From assembly GCA_003223255.1 (NCBI GenBank), contig QHYJ01000105.1, positions 1 to 37,548 of the forward strand: a stretch of DNA of 37,548 nt. The letters are read 5' to 3'. Position 1 is the stretch's first letter. The number at the start of each line of letters is the position of its first letter. The position numbers were made by a program, and so were the translations under genes. The DNA comes from Acidobacteriota bacterium. Lineage in GTDB: Bacteria; Acidobacteriota; Terriglobia; Acidiferrales; UBA7541. The notes under the pieces were generated by a model. That model was given only the letters and a program-made list of their open reading frames with translations, was not told the origin of the DNA and did no database searches. Positions 33,996 through 37,548 of this stretch are shown piece by piece.

Positions 33996-34070
33996 GGCGA
34001 TATCGTCTAAGGGTTAGGACGTAGCCCTCTCAAGGCTAAAATCCGGGTTCGAATCCCGGTATCGCTGCCA
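33996..34070 (+). tRNA. tRNA-Glu (anticodon CUC)
   Basis: The 75-base sequence folds as a complete cloverleaf. Acceptor GGCGATA pairs with TATCGCT (one G-U), the D-arm is CGTCTAAGGGTTAGGACG-like as in other tRNA-Glu, the anticodon stem is TAGCC/GGCTA with loop CTCTCAA (anticodon CTC), the T-arm is CCGGG-TTCGAAT-CCCGG, and CCA is encoded. TAGAGT just upstream (33986-33991) may be its -10 box. The rest of the 33731-34251 gap holds the operators described below and otherwise nothing I can name. Confidence 0.95.
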
Positions 34071-34184: not shown

Positions 34185-34204
34185 ACTCCTAAAATATTAG
34201 TTGA
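34185..34204 (+). promoter_or_regulatory. Upstream BlaI-type operator
   Basis: CTCCTAAAATATTAGTTG is an imperfect palindrome centred on CTAA-AATA-TTAG and shares TCCTAAAA-ATTAG with the second site 43 bases downstream. It overlaps the TTGACA -35 box (34201-34206), as expected for a repressor of its own promoter. Confidence 0.55.
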
Positions 34205-34227
34205 CAACCTCTATTAGGTAGCCGTAG

Positions 34228-34247
34228 TCTCCTAAAACATTAGGAGA
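34228..34247 (+). promoter_or_regulatory. BlaI-type operator overlapping the ribosome site
   Basis: TCTCCTAA-AACA-TTAGGAGA is a perfect eight-base inverted repeat with a four-base spacer. Its right arm supplies the AGGAGA Shine-Dalgarno of the repressor gene at 34252. With TTGACA at 34201 and TAGTCT at 34225 (18-base spacing) it covers the -10 box and start region, the classic position for autoregulation. Confidence 0.7.
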
Positions 34248-34251
34248 CAAG

Positions 34252-34656
34252 ATGGGCCCAAAACGAAAGCCTTCGCCACAGCTAACGCGCCTTGAACTGC
34301 AAATCATGGAAGTCCTCTGGAGGATTGCCGCGGGAACTGTTCAAGAGGTCCAGGCTGCGATTCCGGGAGACCCTCTAGCATATACGACGGTCCAGACAAT
34401 GTTGAACATCCTGCACCGGAAGGGGCGGGTGAAATGCAAGCTGGTCGGCAAGGCTTACACGTACAGCCCGATCCTGAGCCGCGAAAGAGCAGTCAAAGAG
34501 GCGCTGATCGATATGGTGGACCGGATGTTCGGTGGCTCCGTGGAAGCGTTGGTAATGAACCTGCTCAAGACAAGACAACTGGATCCGAAGAAATTGCGAG
34601 AGCTGAAAGAGGTTGTGCGAAAGCAGCGGCAGGAGGACACAGATGGCGATGATTAG
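34252..34656 (+). CDS. BlaI/MecI/CopY family transcriptional repressor
   Basis: The 134-residue protein has the winged-helix domain of the Penicillinase_R family: LTRLELQIMEVLWRIAAGTV, VQEVQAAI, LAYTTVQTMLNILHRKGRVK, then YSPILSRERAVKEALIDMVD and a C-terminal dimerisation helix. Such repressors bind palindromes as dimers and are cleaved when a BlaR1-type membrane protease is activated. Two matching palindromes precede it. It overlaps the M56 protease gene by 14 bases, confirming the pair as one unit. AGGAGA five bases before the ATG supports the start. Confidence 0.95.
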   Translation: MGPKRKPSPQLTRLELQIMEVLWRIAAGTVQEVQAAIPGDPLAYTTVQTMLNILHRKGRVKCKLVGKAYTYSPILSRERAVKEALIDMVDRMFGGSVEALVMNLLKTRQLDPKKLRELKEVVRKQRQEDTDGDD

Positions 34657-36643
34657 CCTGATTCTGTCGACCTACGTCCTGAATGCGCTCTGGCAGATAC
34701 CAGTCATTGCGGCGACGGCATGGGTGTGTATGAAGTTCGCCAACCGACTACCGGCGAAGTACCAACATGCGGTGTAGGTAGCGACGCTCCTGCTTGGGGT
34801 TGTTTTACCTCTGATGAGCCTGGCGAGACCAATAGCCGGAAGTGCGGATACGGTGGGTTCGGTTCATATTGCCCAAAAGGATGGATTTAACCCGCTGCTT
34901 GAGAAGAATGCGACTGGGCTGCGATTGAGCGGCGTACATCGGCGGAGCCAGCAGGTAGCGTTGGGCGCAAAGCTGCAGTGGACATTGAACATCGTTTACA
35001 CAGCGATTCTGGTACATCGGCTGCTTCGGCTGGTATGGGCCTGGCGACGGACCATGCAACTGTTGGCCGATGTGAAAGATGTGAACCTGCCACCCGCGAT
35101 ACGGGAAATCGTCAACCGTTTGGAGCAGGAAGGTTCACTGGGCAAGGTACTGATCCAAAGTTCGCCGGAAGCCGCGAGCCCATTCATCACGGTCATTCGC
35201 CAACCGATGCTGGTAATTCCGGAAAGCCTATTGCAGAAAAGCTCAGAGGCTGACCTGTCCCTGGTGCTGGCGCATGAGTTTGCGCACTTGAGGCGGCGCG
35301 ACTTTCTGCTGAATCTAGTTTACGAGATTGCTTCCATTCCCGTGGCATTTCATCCGATCACGACCTTGATCAAGCAGAAGATTGAAGATTCGCGTGAACT
35401 GGCTTGCGACGAAATCGCGGCGGAACAGACGGGATCGCGCAGCAAGTATGCGAGTTCGTTACTCCGAATTGCACAGTCGATTAGCGGGGAGTCCATGCAG
35501 AGACAGGCGAGCCATGTCTTGGGATTGTTTGAGACCGACAATATGGAGGTACGGATCATGAGTTTAATGGCGAGGAAGAAGCAGATTGGCGAGAAAGTAG
35601 GGCGGATCGGTCTGGGCGCGGTTGGAGCGGTTTTTGCGGTCGTGTGCCTGGGAATGTCTGGGTTCGCGCTGCAAGTGAATGCCGCTTCGTCGGAAGCGTA
35701 TGCCGGGACCTGGAGAGCGGAATATCAAGGGAAGAATTTCCTGGTGATCAACCTAGAGGACGATAAAGGCAACCTGGCGGGCACCATCAGAACGATGAAC
35801 GTGCAGATTGACCTGGAGGGAAGCGGCGAAGTGTACAGCGTCAGTGGCGAATTATCGGAACCGATGAAGCTCACGAACGTTCACTCCGATGGGAAAGCCA
35901 TGTTCTTCGAGTACCTGGAGGAAGGAGACACGGATCCTGTCCACTGGCGCATGGAATTGATGACGCCCGGTAAGGCGAGCCTGGATTGGGTGGAGTTGCC
36001 GAAAGGGCTCAAACTGAAACCGATCGGACTAGCGAAAGATGCCGGGAACAGCGGATCCATGGAGAACGAGGGCGGCACGCGCTCGACCATCGCTTCCGCA
36101 ACTCAGAAGGCGGAATACATCTTGGGCGATTTGAAGATCGAGGGTGATGTTCATGACCGGAATGCAGTGAGAGATCGGGTCCTTAAGCAGTTGGCAGGTC
36201 AGGAATTTGATGACGTCAAAGATTTGGTAGAAGCCGTGGCGCAGCGCGGCGTCAGGTCCGACTTTCAAAGCCGAGGATACCCCAAGGTTGTGGTACAGGA
36301 CCCAACATCAAAACCCCTGGATGAAAGCGGAGGGAAGCAGCAGATCCTCGTCGTCGTCCCGGTTTCGGAAGGCACGCAGTACCGGCTAAAGAATTTAACG
36401 ATAACAAGCGTTCCGCCGGACAAGTCGTTGAGCATCCTAACTGCAACCCTTCGGGAACAGTTCCACCTTCGGCCGAATGATCTGTTCAGTGTGGTTGAAG
36501 TCCGTGCGGGGATGGAGAGGGCGACACAGCTTTATGCGGATCATGGCTACCCGGAAGCGCAACTGCAACCTGAGACGGACATCGACGAAGTCGCACATCA
36601 AATTAATTTGATTATTCGAGTCACCGAGGGTGCTCATAAATAG
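34643..36643 (+). pseudogene. BlaR1-like M56 metalloprotease with tandem POTRA-like domains, amber-interrupted
   Basis: An ideal AGGAGG six bases upstream fixes the start at ATG 34643. After 44 codons ending KYQHAV a TAG (34775-34777) stands where M56 proteins have Trp (HAVWVA), and the same frame continues for 621 more codons. Residue numbers count the whole frame: membrane helices in the first 130 residues, HEFAHLRRRD zinc site at 211-220, SRELACDE at about 250-257, a last helix about 323-345, then a beta-rich domain (about 352-455, GTWRAEYQGKNFLVINL) and two POTRA-like modules (about 493-577, ILGDLKIEGDVHDRN; and 580-664, YRLKNLTITSV...LYADHGYPEAQL...INLIIRVTEG). No penicillin-binding domain is present. 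Restart at ATG 34814 lacks a ribosome site and would lose the first helices. Confidence 0.85.
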
Positions 36644-36787
36644 TAAGCGATTGGAAGTCCTGTGGATTGCGATCTCTCCGTCAAGTCCTGACGCGGTAAT
36701 CGGAAACTTGGGGTCCTGGTACGGGACTCGTCCGGTTAGGGCTTACTTGCTCCGAGTCATCCTTATGGTCACTTTTCGTCCGTTTGA
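36644..36787. other. Gap without recognised genes
   Basis: No open frame, tRNA, terminator or convincing promoter could be recognised after the M56 stop. It borders the decayed gene that follows. Confidence 0.4.
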
Positions 36788-37149
36788 TTAGGGCTTCGTC
36801 TCAGAAATCTTGACACCGTCGGGCCTTGCAAAGAGTTTGGAATCAAGAGGAACTTCCTCGTAGGCGGTATAAATGAATACCAAAGGATGCGGCACGCGGT
36901 CAGGACCGCTTAGGCATTGTGGACGAATGCTTTGTCGGACCGGTCCCCGGCGTTGGCGGCCAGGTCTTCCTTTAGGTAGTTCAGTTCCAATTTCAGCGCC
37001 TCAAGGAGGCATTCGTGGGACACGTGCGGTGCGATCCTCTTCGCATCCTGGCCCCACAGCGTGATGCCCGACTCCGCGATATTCATCCAAATGATGGGGT
37101 TCCCATCCGAGCCATGGCGGACGAGTTTACCGGTGTAGTGGTTGAAGCC
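36788..37149 (-). pseudogene. Remnant of a DUF4111/AadA-like nucleotidyltransferase
   Basis: Read on the minus strand from 37149, FNHYTGKLVRHGSDGNPIIW, then MNIAESGITLWGQDAKRIAP, VSHECLLEALKLELNYLKED runs to HNA, where TAA (36912-36910) replaces the Tyr or Val expected before AVLTACRIL. A further piece (YTAYEEVPLDSKLFARPDGV) reads in another frame to a stop at 36790. The pattern of an N-A-E-x-G-I-x-L-x-G strand, the S/T-x-E-x-L helix and xAVLxACR is that of the C-terminal part of aminoglycoside-adenylyltransferase-like proteins (DUF4111). The catalytic N-terminal domain (G-S-x10-D-x-D) is absent. Family assignment is from memory of the pattern. Confidence 0.5.
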
Positions 37150-37211
37150 GCAGCACCGCGAACTGCCGGGGGTACAATGAGCAGCGATGCGAGAATATTT
37201 GGGCTCTTAGA

Positions 37212-37548
37212 GTGTCCGAGACGCTTGGCCAAGGAGAATTAGTGGCATTCTTGGAATCTCGCTTTCCCAGCGCGACTAAATCAATCGGACGGAACGCAAT
37301 CCAGGGAACCAAGTGCGTAGAGACTCGGGTGCCCGCAGATTCACCGGAATTTCGGGAAATTGCGCGTTTCATAGGTTCTAGGAGAGCGCAGGGCCAGAAA
37401 GCGTTCGAGTATTTCCCCATTGCTTCGTATCTTCGCAAATACACTAAGAATGAATTACGCGACGCAGAACTACTTACACTCGATGTTTCCTCGTATTTCG
37501 AGCCTAGTGGGGAGGAGTGCGGGACTGTTTACGAGACCCTCTGCCAAG
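37212..37548 (+). CDS. Hypothetical protein, 3' end outside window
   Basis: From GTG 37212 the frame stays open for 112 codons to the edge and reads like a real protein: VSETLGQGELVAFLESRFPS, VPADSPEFREIARFIGSRRA, FEYFPIASYLRKYTKNELRD, then LDVSSYFEPSGEECGTVYET. The last part (ECGTVYE...C) resembles the start of a Cys-pair metal-binding motif. The frame is open back to 37146 without an ATG, and no Shine-Dalgarno precedes GTG, so the start is uncertain. I recognise no family. Confidence 0.5.
   Translation, partial: MSETLGQGELVAFLESRFPSATKSIGRNAIQGTKCVETRVPADSPEFREIARFIGSRRAQGQKAFEYFPIASYLRKYTKNELRDAELLTLDVSSYFEPSGEECGTVYETLCQ

Follow-up and report, generated by a model that had tools for sequence, protein, structure and literature searches.

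To our knowledge, only the beta-lactam-sensing version of the M56/BlaI chassis is understood at the level of molecules. The closest described systems are BlaI/BlaR1 and MecI/MecR1 of staphylococci and bacilli, and the protease table of one review places BlaR1 and MecR1 under M56 (PMC7593790). The acidobacterial locus analysed here shares with these systems the repressor family, the protease fold, the active-site residues and their spacing, the dyad operators 5' of the repressor gene, and the adjacency of repressor and protease genes. It differs from them in its operator, CTAAN4TTAG present twice with 43 bp between the copies, and in the domains that follow the protease, a barrel and a pair of POTRA modules in place of a penicillin-binding sensor. 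On sequence evidence the repressor-protease logic is BlaR1-like, and what is new is the input domain. We found no M56-POTRA system among the papers listed from the open-licence literature, where one review mentions BlaR1 and POTRA once each and a search for BlaR1 with M56 and Acidobacteria returned nothing; this agrees with a preliminary description of the same DNA, according to which no system combining BlaI, M56 and POTRA had been described.

The window, i.e. the whole stretch of DNA analysed, is a complete contig of 37,548 bases in a draft genome of 6.66 Mb and 428 contigs, and the locus lies at its end. Its features are as follows.

33996..34070, + strand: tRNA-Glu (ctc), the upstream neighbour of the repressor-protease pair
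34189..34200, unstranded: putative operator 1, CTAAAATATTAG, immediately 5' of TTGACA (34201-34206)
34232..34243, unstranded: putative operator 2, CTAAAACATTAG, core of an 18-bp dyad at 34229-34246
34252..34656, + strand: BlaI/MecI-type repressor, 134 aa (PF03965, E 5.3e-30)
34643..36643, + strand: M56 protease-sensor frame of 666 codons and a stop, with a TAG breaking it at codon 45
34643..35677, + strand: protease domain of the M56 family, membrane helices included, aa 1-345 (H211, E212, H215, E252, D256, R304)
34775..34777, + strand: in-frame TAG, codon 45 of the M56 frame, in the second membrane helix
35681..36046, + strand: predicted beta-barrel domain, aa 347-468, avidin/lipocalin-like (AlphaFold block means 81-97)
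36107..36373, + strand: POTRA-like module 1, aa 489-577, BamA POTRA3-like (hhalign: whole in the family alignment, second half alone)
36374..36640, + strand: POTRA module 2, aa 578-666, BamA POTRA4-like (Pfam, hhalign, NCBIfam)

As first described, the blaI-like gene and the M56 frame overlap; the shared stretch is 14 nt long, and both families were recovered by Pfam (E 5.3e-30 for the repressor, 1.2e-22 for PF05569). Eight of the ten other frames scanned in the window have Pfam matches, mostly to enzymes. The contig runs out 0.9 kb past the M56 frame (36644-37548), where the sole same-strand frame of at least 80 aa, spanning 37212 to the contig end, matches nothing in Pfam. An island inserted at the tRNA-Glu gene was considered and rejected: the 3' end of this gene (22 bases, up to three mismatches) has no second copy in the window, and the genes have a G+C content of 0.52-0.56, compared with 0.52-0.60 across 30.0-37.2 kb.

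The repressor is well above the Pfam cut-off for its family (104.6 bits against 22.6) and is also matched by the NCBIfam models for BlaI, MecI and CopY, each below its own cut-off. Upstream of it, CTAAN4TTAG occurs twice in the window against a mean of 0.04 in shuffles, and the two putative operators, 43 bp apart with TTGACA between them, flank the promoter. A looser pattern, CTAN6TAG, which was picked after a first look at related upstream regions, is found at least once in 77 and at least twice in 68 of the 78 upstream regions of distinct related blaI frames. The spacing is 42 or 43 bp in 56 of 70 site pairs. Letter-shuffled upstream regions give 2.24 and 0.04. Since twin sites are present both at this promoter and at those of related blaI genes, autoregulation of the operon by the repressor, via the two sites, is very probable. 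The pair of CTAN6TAG sites at 42-43 bp recurs as a hallmark of blaI-M56 operons in Acidobacteriota and could serve to find such operons and their targets. Within the own genome, which has five M56 loci with a blaI-like gene, the 43-bp twin spacing is seen at the present locus only; among the other four loci, the site occurs twice at one (20 bp apart), once at each of two, and not at all at the last.

Two acidobacterial pairs, QHYZ01000037 and QIAM01000101, are useful for comparison. Their M56 parts are 34 and 36% identical to the present one over the best segment, they carry the same barrel domain, and blaI again lies 5' of the protease gene; the twin operator is found in QHYZ01000037 and, by the pattern searched, one site in QIAM01000101. 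Unlike the present gene, neither of them has POTRA modules.

For the Pfam scan of the protease-sensor, the 609-aa ORF from 34814 served as query, and PF05569 was matched with 80.9 bits against a cut-off of 31 (E 1.2e-22). No penicillin-binding or beta-lactamase family appeared in Pfam at E up to 1, which bears out the earlier statement that the penicillin-binding sensor is lacking, and the NCBIfam model blaR1_generic reaches 45.9 bits against a cut-off of 400, over the protease part only. The HEXXH motif, the glutamate zinc ligand and the Asp and Arg of the active site are all present (H211, E212, H215, E252, D256 and R304). The active site reported for BlaR1 comprises His201, His205, Glu242 and Asp246, with Arg294 contributed by the partner chain (PMC9834060); the spacing of H211, H215, E252, D256 and R304 is identical to it. 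The best solved structure by sequence is S. aureus BlaR1 (E 8.1e-7). An AlphaFold model of the frame read through its stop, built on an alignment of 42 rows (41 M56 relatives; mean pLDDT 74.9), superposes on S. aureus BlaR1 over aa 8-299 with Z 17.8 and rmsd 3.2 for 243 aligned residues. Its block means are at least 79 for aa 1-60, 101-280 and 301-470, and it contains the four predicted membrane helices.

The gene as sequenced stops in helix 2. The preliminary description had taken the frame 34643-36643 as whole and overlooked the TAG, which falls at a position where 36 of the 41 aligned relatives share one residue (these 41 being a selection from the 55 loci of the peptide-pattern scan described below). 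Because of this codon, the four-helix sensor cannot be made from the gene as sequenced. Past the TAG, 621 codons are nevertheless uninterrupted and retain the invariant residues of M56; we read the stop as either a fresh inactivation in this strain or a base error of the draft assembly. Rescue by a downstream start, ATG 34814, was judged unlikely, as the first two helices would be lost and the ribosome site is unclear by eye.

These observations bear on a first alternative, namely that the fusion arose and was then inactivated in this lineage, leaving a POTRA pair with no present function, a possibility that deserves to be taken seriously even if it is on the doubtful side. The stop at a residue shared by most relatives fits with it, as do the single occurrence of M56-POTRA and the long branch of the POTRA pair in its tree, whereas the 621 open codons, with their invariant M56 residues and an over-cut-off POTRA match, and the intact repressor and operators argue against it. 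Given the open frame and the intact repressor and operators, any decay would have to be very recent, or else the stop is a sequencing error. The M56-POTRA gene, seen once, is possibly a fresh pseudogene.

After the protease part comes the domain that had been described as beta-rich. It is present, as a predicted barrel, and is common to close M56 relatives, a point that the preliminary description had missed. Structural comparison with VIA-align gave Z values of about 9-10 against streptavidins and other avidins, and Z 10.3 with rmsd 2.9 over 85 aligned residues against TP0435; Foldseek lists lipocalin-like proteins for it at E above 0.05. The likeness of the modelled barrel to avidins and lipocalins is thus middling. 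The barrel search returned 18 frames at E up to 0.05, four of them copies of the own locus and four second copies, and ten different relatives have a similar barrel after the M56 part, none of them with POTRA modules. Because it is found in these ten, the barrel is ordinary equipment of close M56 relatives and, for the same reason, may be the original sensor. Frames with the barrel and no M56 part also occur (L182:1495-2340 and L183:1369-1926), secreted or membrane-anchored as judged by eye, and the two that were read have no Pfam match.

It is conceivable, though somewhat doubtful, that the barrel, like those of lipocalins and avidins, senses a ligand that is small or hydrophobic, and that the POTRA pair only docks this sensor to a partner. 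Its occurrence in ten M56 relatives that have no POTRA modules (E up to 0.05) and in M56-less frames, together with the modelled resemblance to ligand-binding barrels at Z about 10, speaks for this alternative; on the other side, a common fold shows no ligand, and a Z of about 10 is middling. The barrel may just as well be the sensor.

The two C-terminal modules were assessed mainly by profile comparison. Module 2 passes the Pfam cut-off for PF07244 (38.9 bits against 21.3, E 1.4e-9), and as a single sequence it is matched by hhalign at 98.3% (E 1.7e-14). Module 1 has no Pfam match by itself, and as a single sequence it reaches 82% (E 1.1e-5) with residues 39-89 of its 89 aligned, the best of 30 shuffles of it giving 0.8%. 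When a profile of the present pair and four secreted POTRA proteins was compared with one of eight acidobacterial BamA proteins, the POTRA region aligned with BamA POTRA3-4 and onwards, beginning at the initial strand of module 1 (99.9%, E 3.6e-36). The latter half of module 1 together with module 2 is matched by BamA chains in the PDB (best E 0.0017, over query residues 71-195) and by positions 201-320 of the NCBIfam BamA model (E 1.4e-13, below the cut-off of the model itself). Because single-sequence hhalign covers module 2 as well as the latter half of module 1, for which shuffles reach 0.8% at most, these parts are firmly assigned as POTRA on sequence grounds. The first half of module 1, the weakest part of the assignment, draws on the family alignment. 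Of the two modules first proposed, the second and half of the first stand by themselves.

Structure prediction, by which the C-terminus was to be recognized, adds nothing to the hhalign evidence for POTRA3-4. The pair modelled alone from its single sequence has a mean pLDDT of 34.6, and the POTRA part of the read-through model, built without aligned relatives, has block means of 27 to 65, both uninformative; the fold searches gave no POTRA rows, the POTRA part of the query lacking a usable model.

Both modules align with BamA POTRA3-4 in the same order, but the present protein ends after module 2, with no C-terminal outer-membrane barrel, and its protease part is an inner-membrane tether. BamA proteins with extra, divergent POTRA domains, acidobacterial ones included, have been reported (PMC4494059). 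The BamA of the own genus was considered as a possible donor of the pair: in a midpoint-rooted POTRA tree of 40 distinct rows, from 44 covering more than three quarters of the profile, the pair lies outside the group holding 31 of the 32 BamA rows; this grouping is weak (80/34) and the branch of the pair is long. No relatives of the POTRA part or of the M56 part were found in viral contigs; a contig scan with the single protein as query gave 44 stretches matching the pattern and no relatives.

Both modules also align with those of barrel-less POTRA proteins of about 300 aa from the same genus, at 19-30% identity in the seven rows that have both. These proteins differ from the present one by a signal peptide (by eye), mostly by extra C-terminal sequence, and by having no membrane protease. 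Four of them align with BamA POTRA3-5. Apparently secreted proteins of this kind, about 250-390 aa, are encoded at L067:4211-5125, L084:1258-2220 and L104-L109 in the same genus, and further ones at L192-L196 in the same family; eight frames of this size were counted in 7 of 36 genus genomes. Neither a blaI nor an M56 frame was found in the available flanks of the barrel-less POTRA genes. Another POTRA array that lacks a barrel, about 440 aa long, occurs at L197:1448-2764 (contig C71 of the own genome) and L204:707-2335. POTRA-matching frames of 433-543 aa are present in 25 of the 36 genus genomes, two such proteins having been read.

Further M56 plus POTRA architectures in Acidobacteriota, for which the preliminary description had proposed a search, did not turn up: among 82 distinct M56 frames examined, the only POTRA match is that of the present gene. 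These frames were drawn by likeness to the present M56 part, and three of them are cut C-terminally by the locus edge. They come from 30 loci among the matches listed for the class (399 genomes, 281 matched, at most three candidates scored in each), from six loci of the own genome, and from all 55 loci obtained with two short peptide patterns in a set of 84,980 species, each represented by one genome. Such sampling could overlook a fusion whose M56 part is distant.

The search from the POTRA side gave the same picture. POTRA matches were obtained in all 36 genus genomes (E up to 1e-5) and in 85 of 89 family genomes (E up to 1e-6), in frames which, by their length and the frames read, represent BamA, POTRA proteins lacking a barrel, or fragments at contig ends; the M56-POTRA fusion is present in one of the 89 family genomes, our own. 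With the C-terminal part as query, 121 of 297 phylum genomes match, and only the own match starts before query residue 116; residues 1-120 being the barrel, all other phylum matches leave the barrel uncovered. A query of barrel and POTRA start, in which POTRA begins at about residue 170, matches 30 of 399 class genomes, and only the own match passes residue 165. No M56 part was found in the POTRA frames of about 600-740 aa in G253, G156, G544, G266 and G438, G159 (652 aa, contig end) being left out. Of the 72,556 records in the plasmid collection, 11 gave a match, over the M56 part only and each over at most 31% of the query.

M56 beside BlaI is itself found in many Acidobacteriota genomes. 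Ten M56 proteins of the class were scanned (L001-L003, L039-L060), and their ends include TonB_C, CarboxypepD_reg, GWxTD and HlyD-like domains.

An assembly artefact joining an M56 gene to a POTRA gene is a very improbable explanation. It would accord with a draft genome of 428 contigs, a gene 0.9 kb from the contig end and the sole occurrence found, but a single 621-codon frame with its linker spans the junction, and the stop comes just past module 2, where most secreted POTRA relatives continue. M56-POTRA is a real domain combination, unrecorded as far as these data show, in one genome and with an in-frame stop.

Operator searches had been proposed as a way to define the regulon. The genome-wide search used the exact form CTAAN4TTAG and gave 13 sites in the 6.66 Mb of the own genome, the reversed control pattern giving 106; beyond the operon's own pair, no second 43-bp twin was found. 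One of the 13 sites precedes another blaI-like gene (C290). Contig C219 has four, three of them reading CTAAGCGCTTAG. Two sites on this contig, 108 bp apart (L172:1465-1584), lie 218 and 326 bp before the gene of a TonB-dependent receptor, an outer-membrane protein with Plug and CarboxypepD_reg in Pfam. The remaining two are beside a LacI-family gene and an oxidoreductase gene. In view of these neighbours and of the shared reading of three sites, we judge the C219 sites to be those of a LacI-type regulator. The C303 site also has a LacI-family gene nearby, and the rest, apart from one near the start of C221, are near carbohydrate kinase, arabinofuranosidase-like or Maf-like genes or genes with no Pfam match. 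As the sites at the receptor gene read as LacI-type and the twin is found only at the own operon, the regulon appears to give no firm support for an outer-membrane role.

The repressor, the two putative operators round the promoter and the intact active-site residues can be read from the DNA, the barrel comes from a model and the POTRA pair from homology. Our preferred reading, held tentatively and as possible rather than probable, is that of a BlaI/M56 pair whose periplasmic sensor consists of a calycin-type barrel and an added BamA POTRA3-4-like pair. The repressor would shut its own operon by binding both operators. The POTRA pair would bind a periplasmic polypeptide, candidates being an exposed beta-strand of an outer-membrane protein in transit, a Bam-type partner, or a barrel-less POTRA protein of the lineage. 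Binding would be relayed via helix 4 to the zinc protease on the cytoplasmic side, and this protease would cut the repressor. In BamA, the POTRA modules serve to bind both lipoprotein partners and strands of client proteins, and a polypeptide ligand is for this reason likelier than a drug; by POTRA homology, polypeptide binding by the present pair is plausible. Against the sensor reading we count the stop at codon 45, the single occurrence, the lack of another 43-bp twin of the exact operator in the genome, and a POTRA pair with no usable model. For the role first proposed, sensing of outer-membrane assembly stress, a further counterweight is that the close M56 relatives examined have no POTRA modules.

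A more specific proposal is a one-step envelope stress pathway, in which stalled outer-membrane proteins or a Bam partner would be felt by a BamA-type POTRA pair transferred from the outer-membrane assembly machinery to an inner-membrane protease, leading directly to destruction of the repressor with neither an anti-sigma factor nor a kinase; we consider this unlikely.

Since BlaI-M56 pairs occur in many Acidobacteriota genomes with differing periplasmic domains, M56 plus BlaI looks like a modular signalling chassis. The single occurrence and the stop codon weaken the present case. If it is true, a POTRA pair on the M56/BlaI chassis would couple the assembly of outer-membrane proteins to proteolysis of a repressor.
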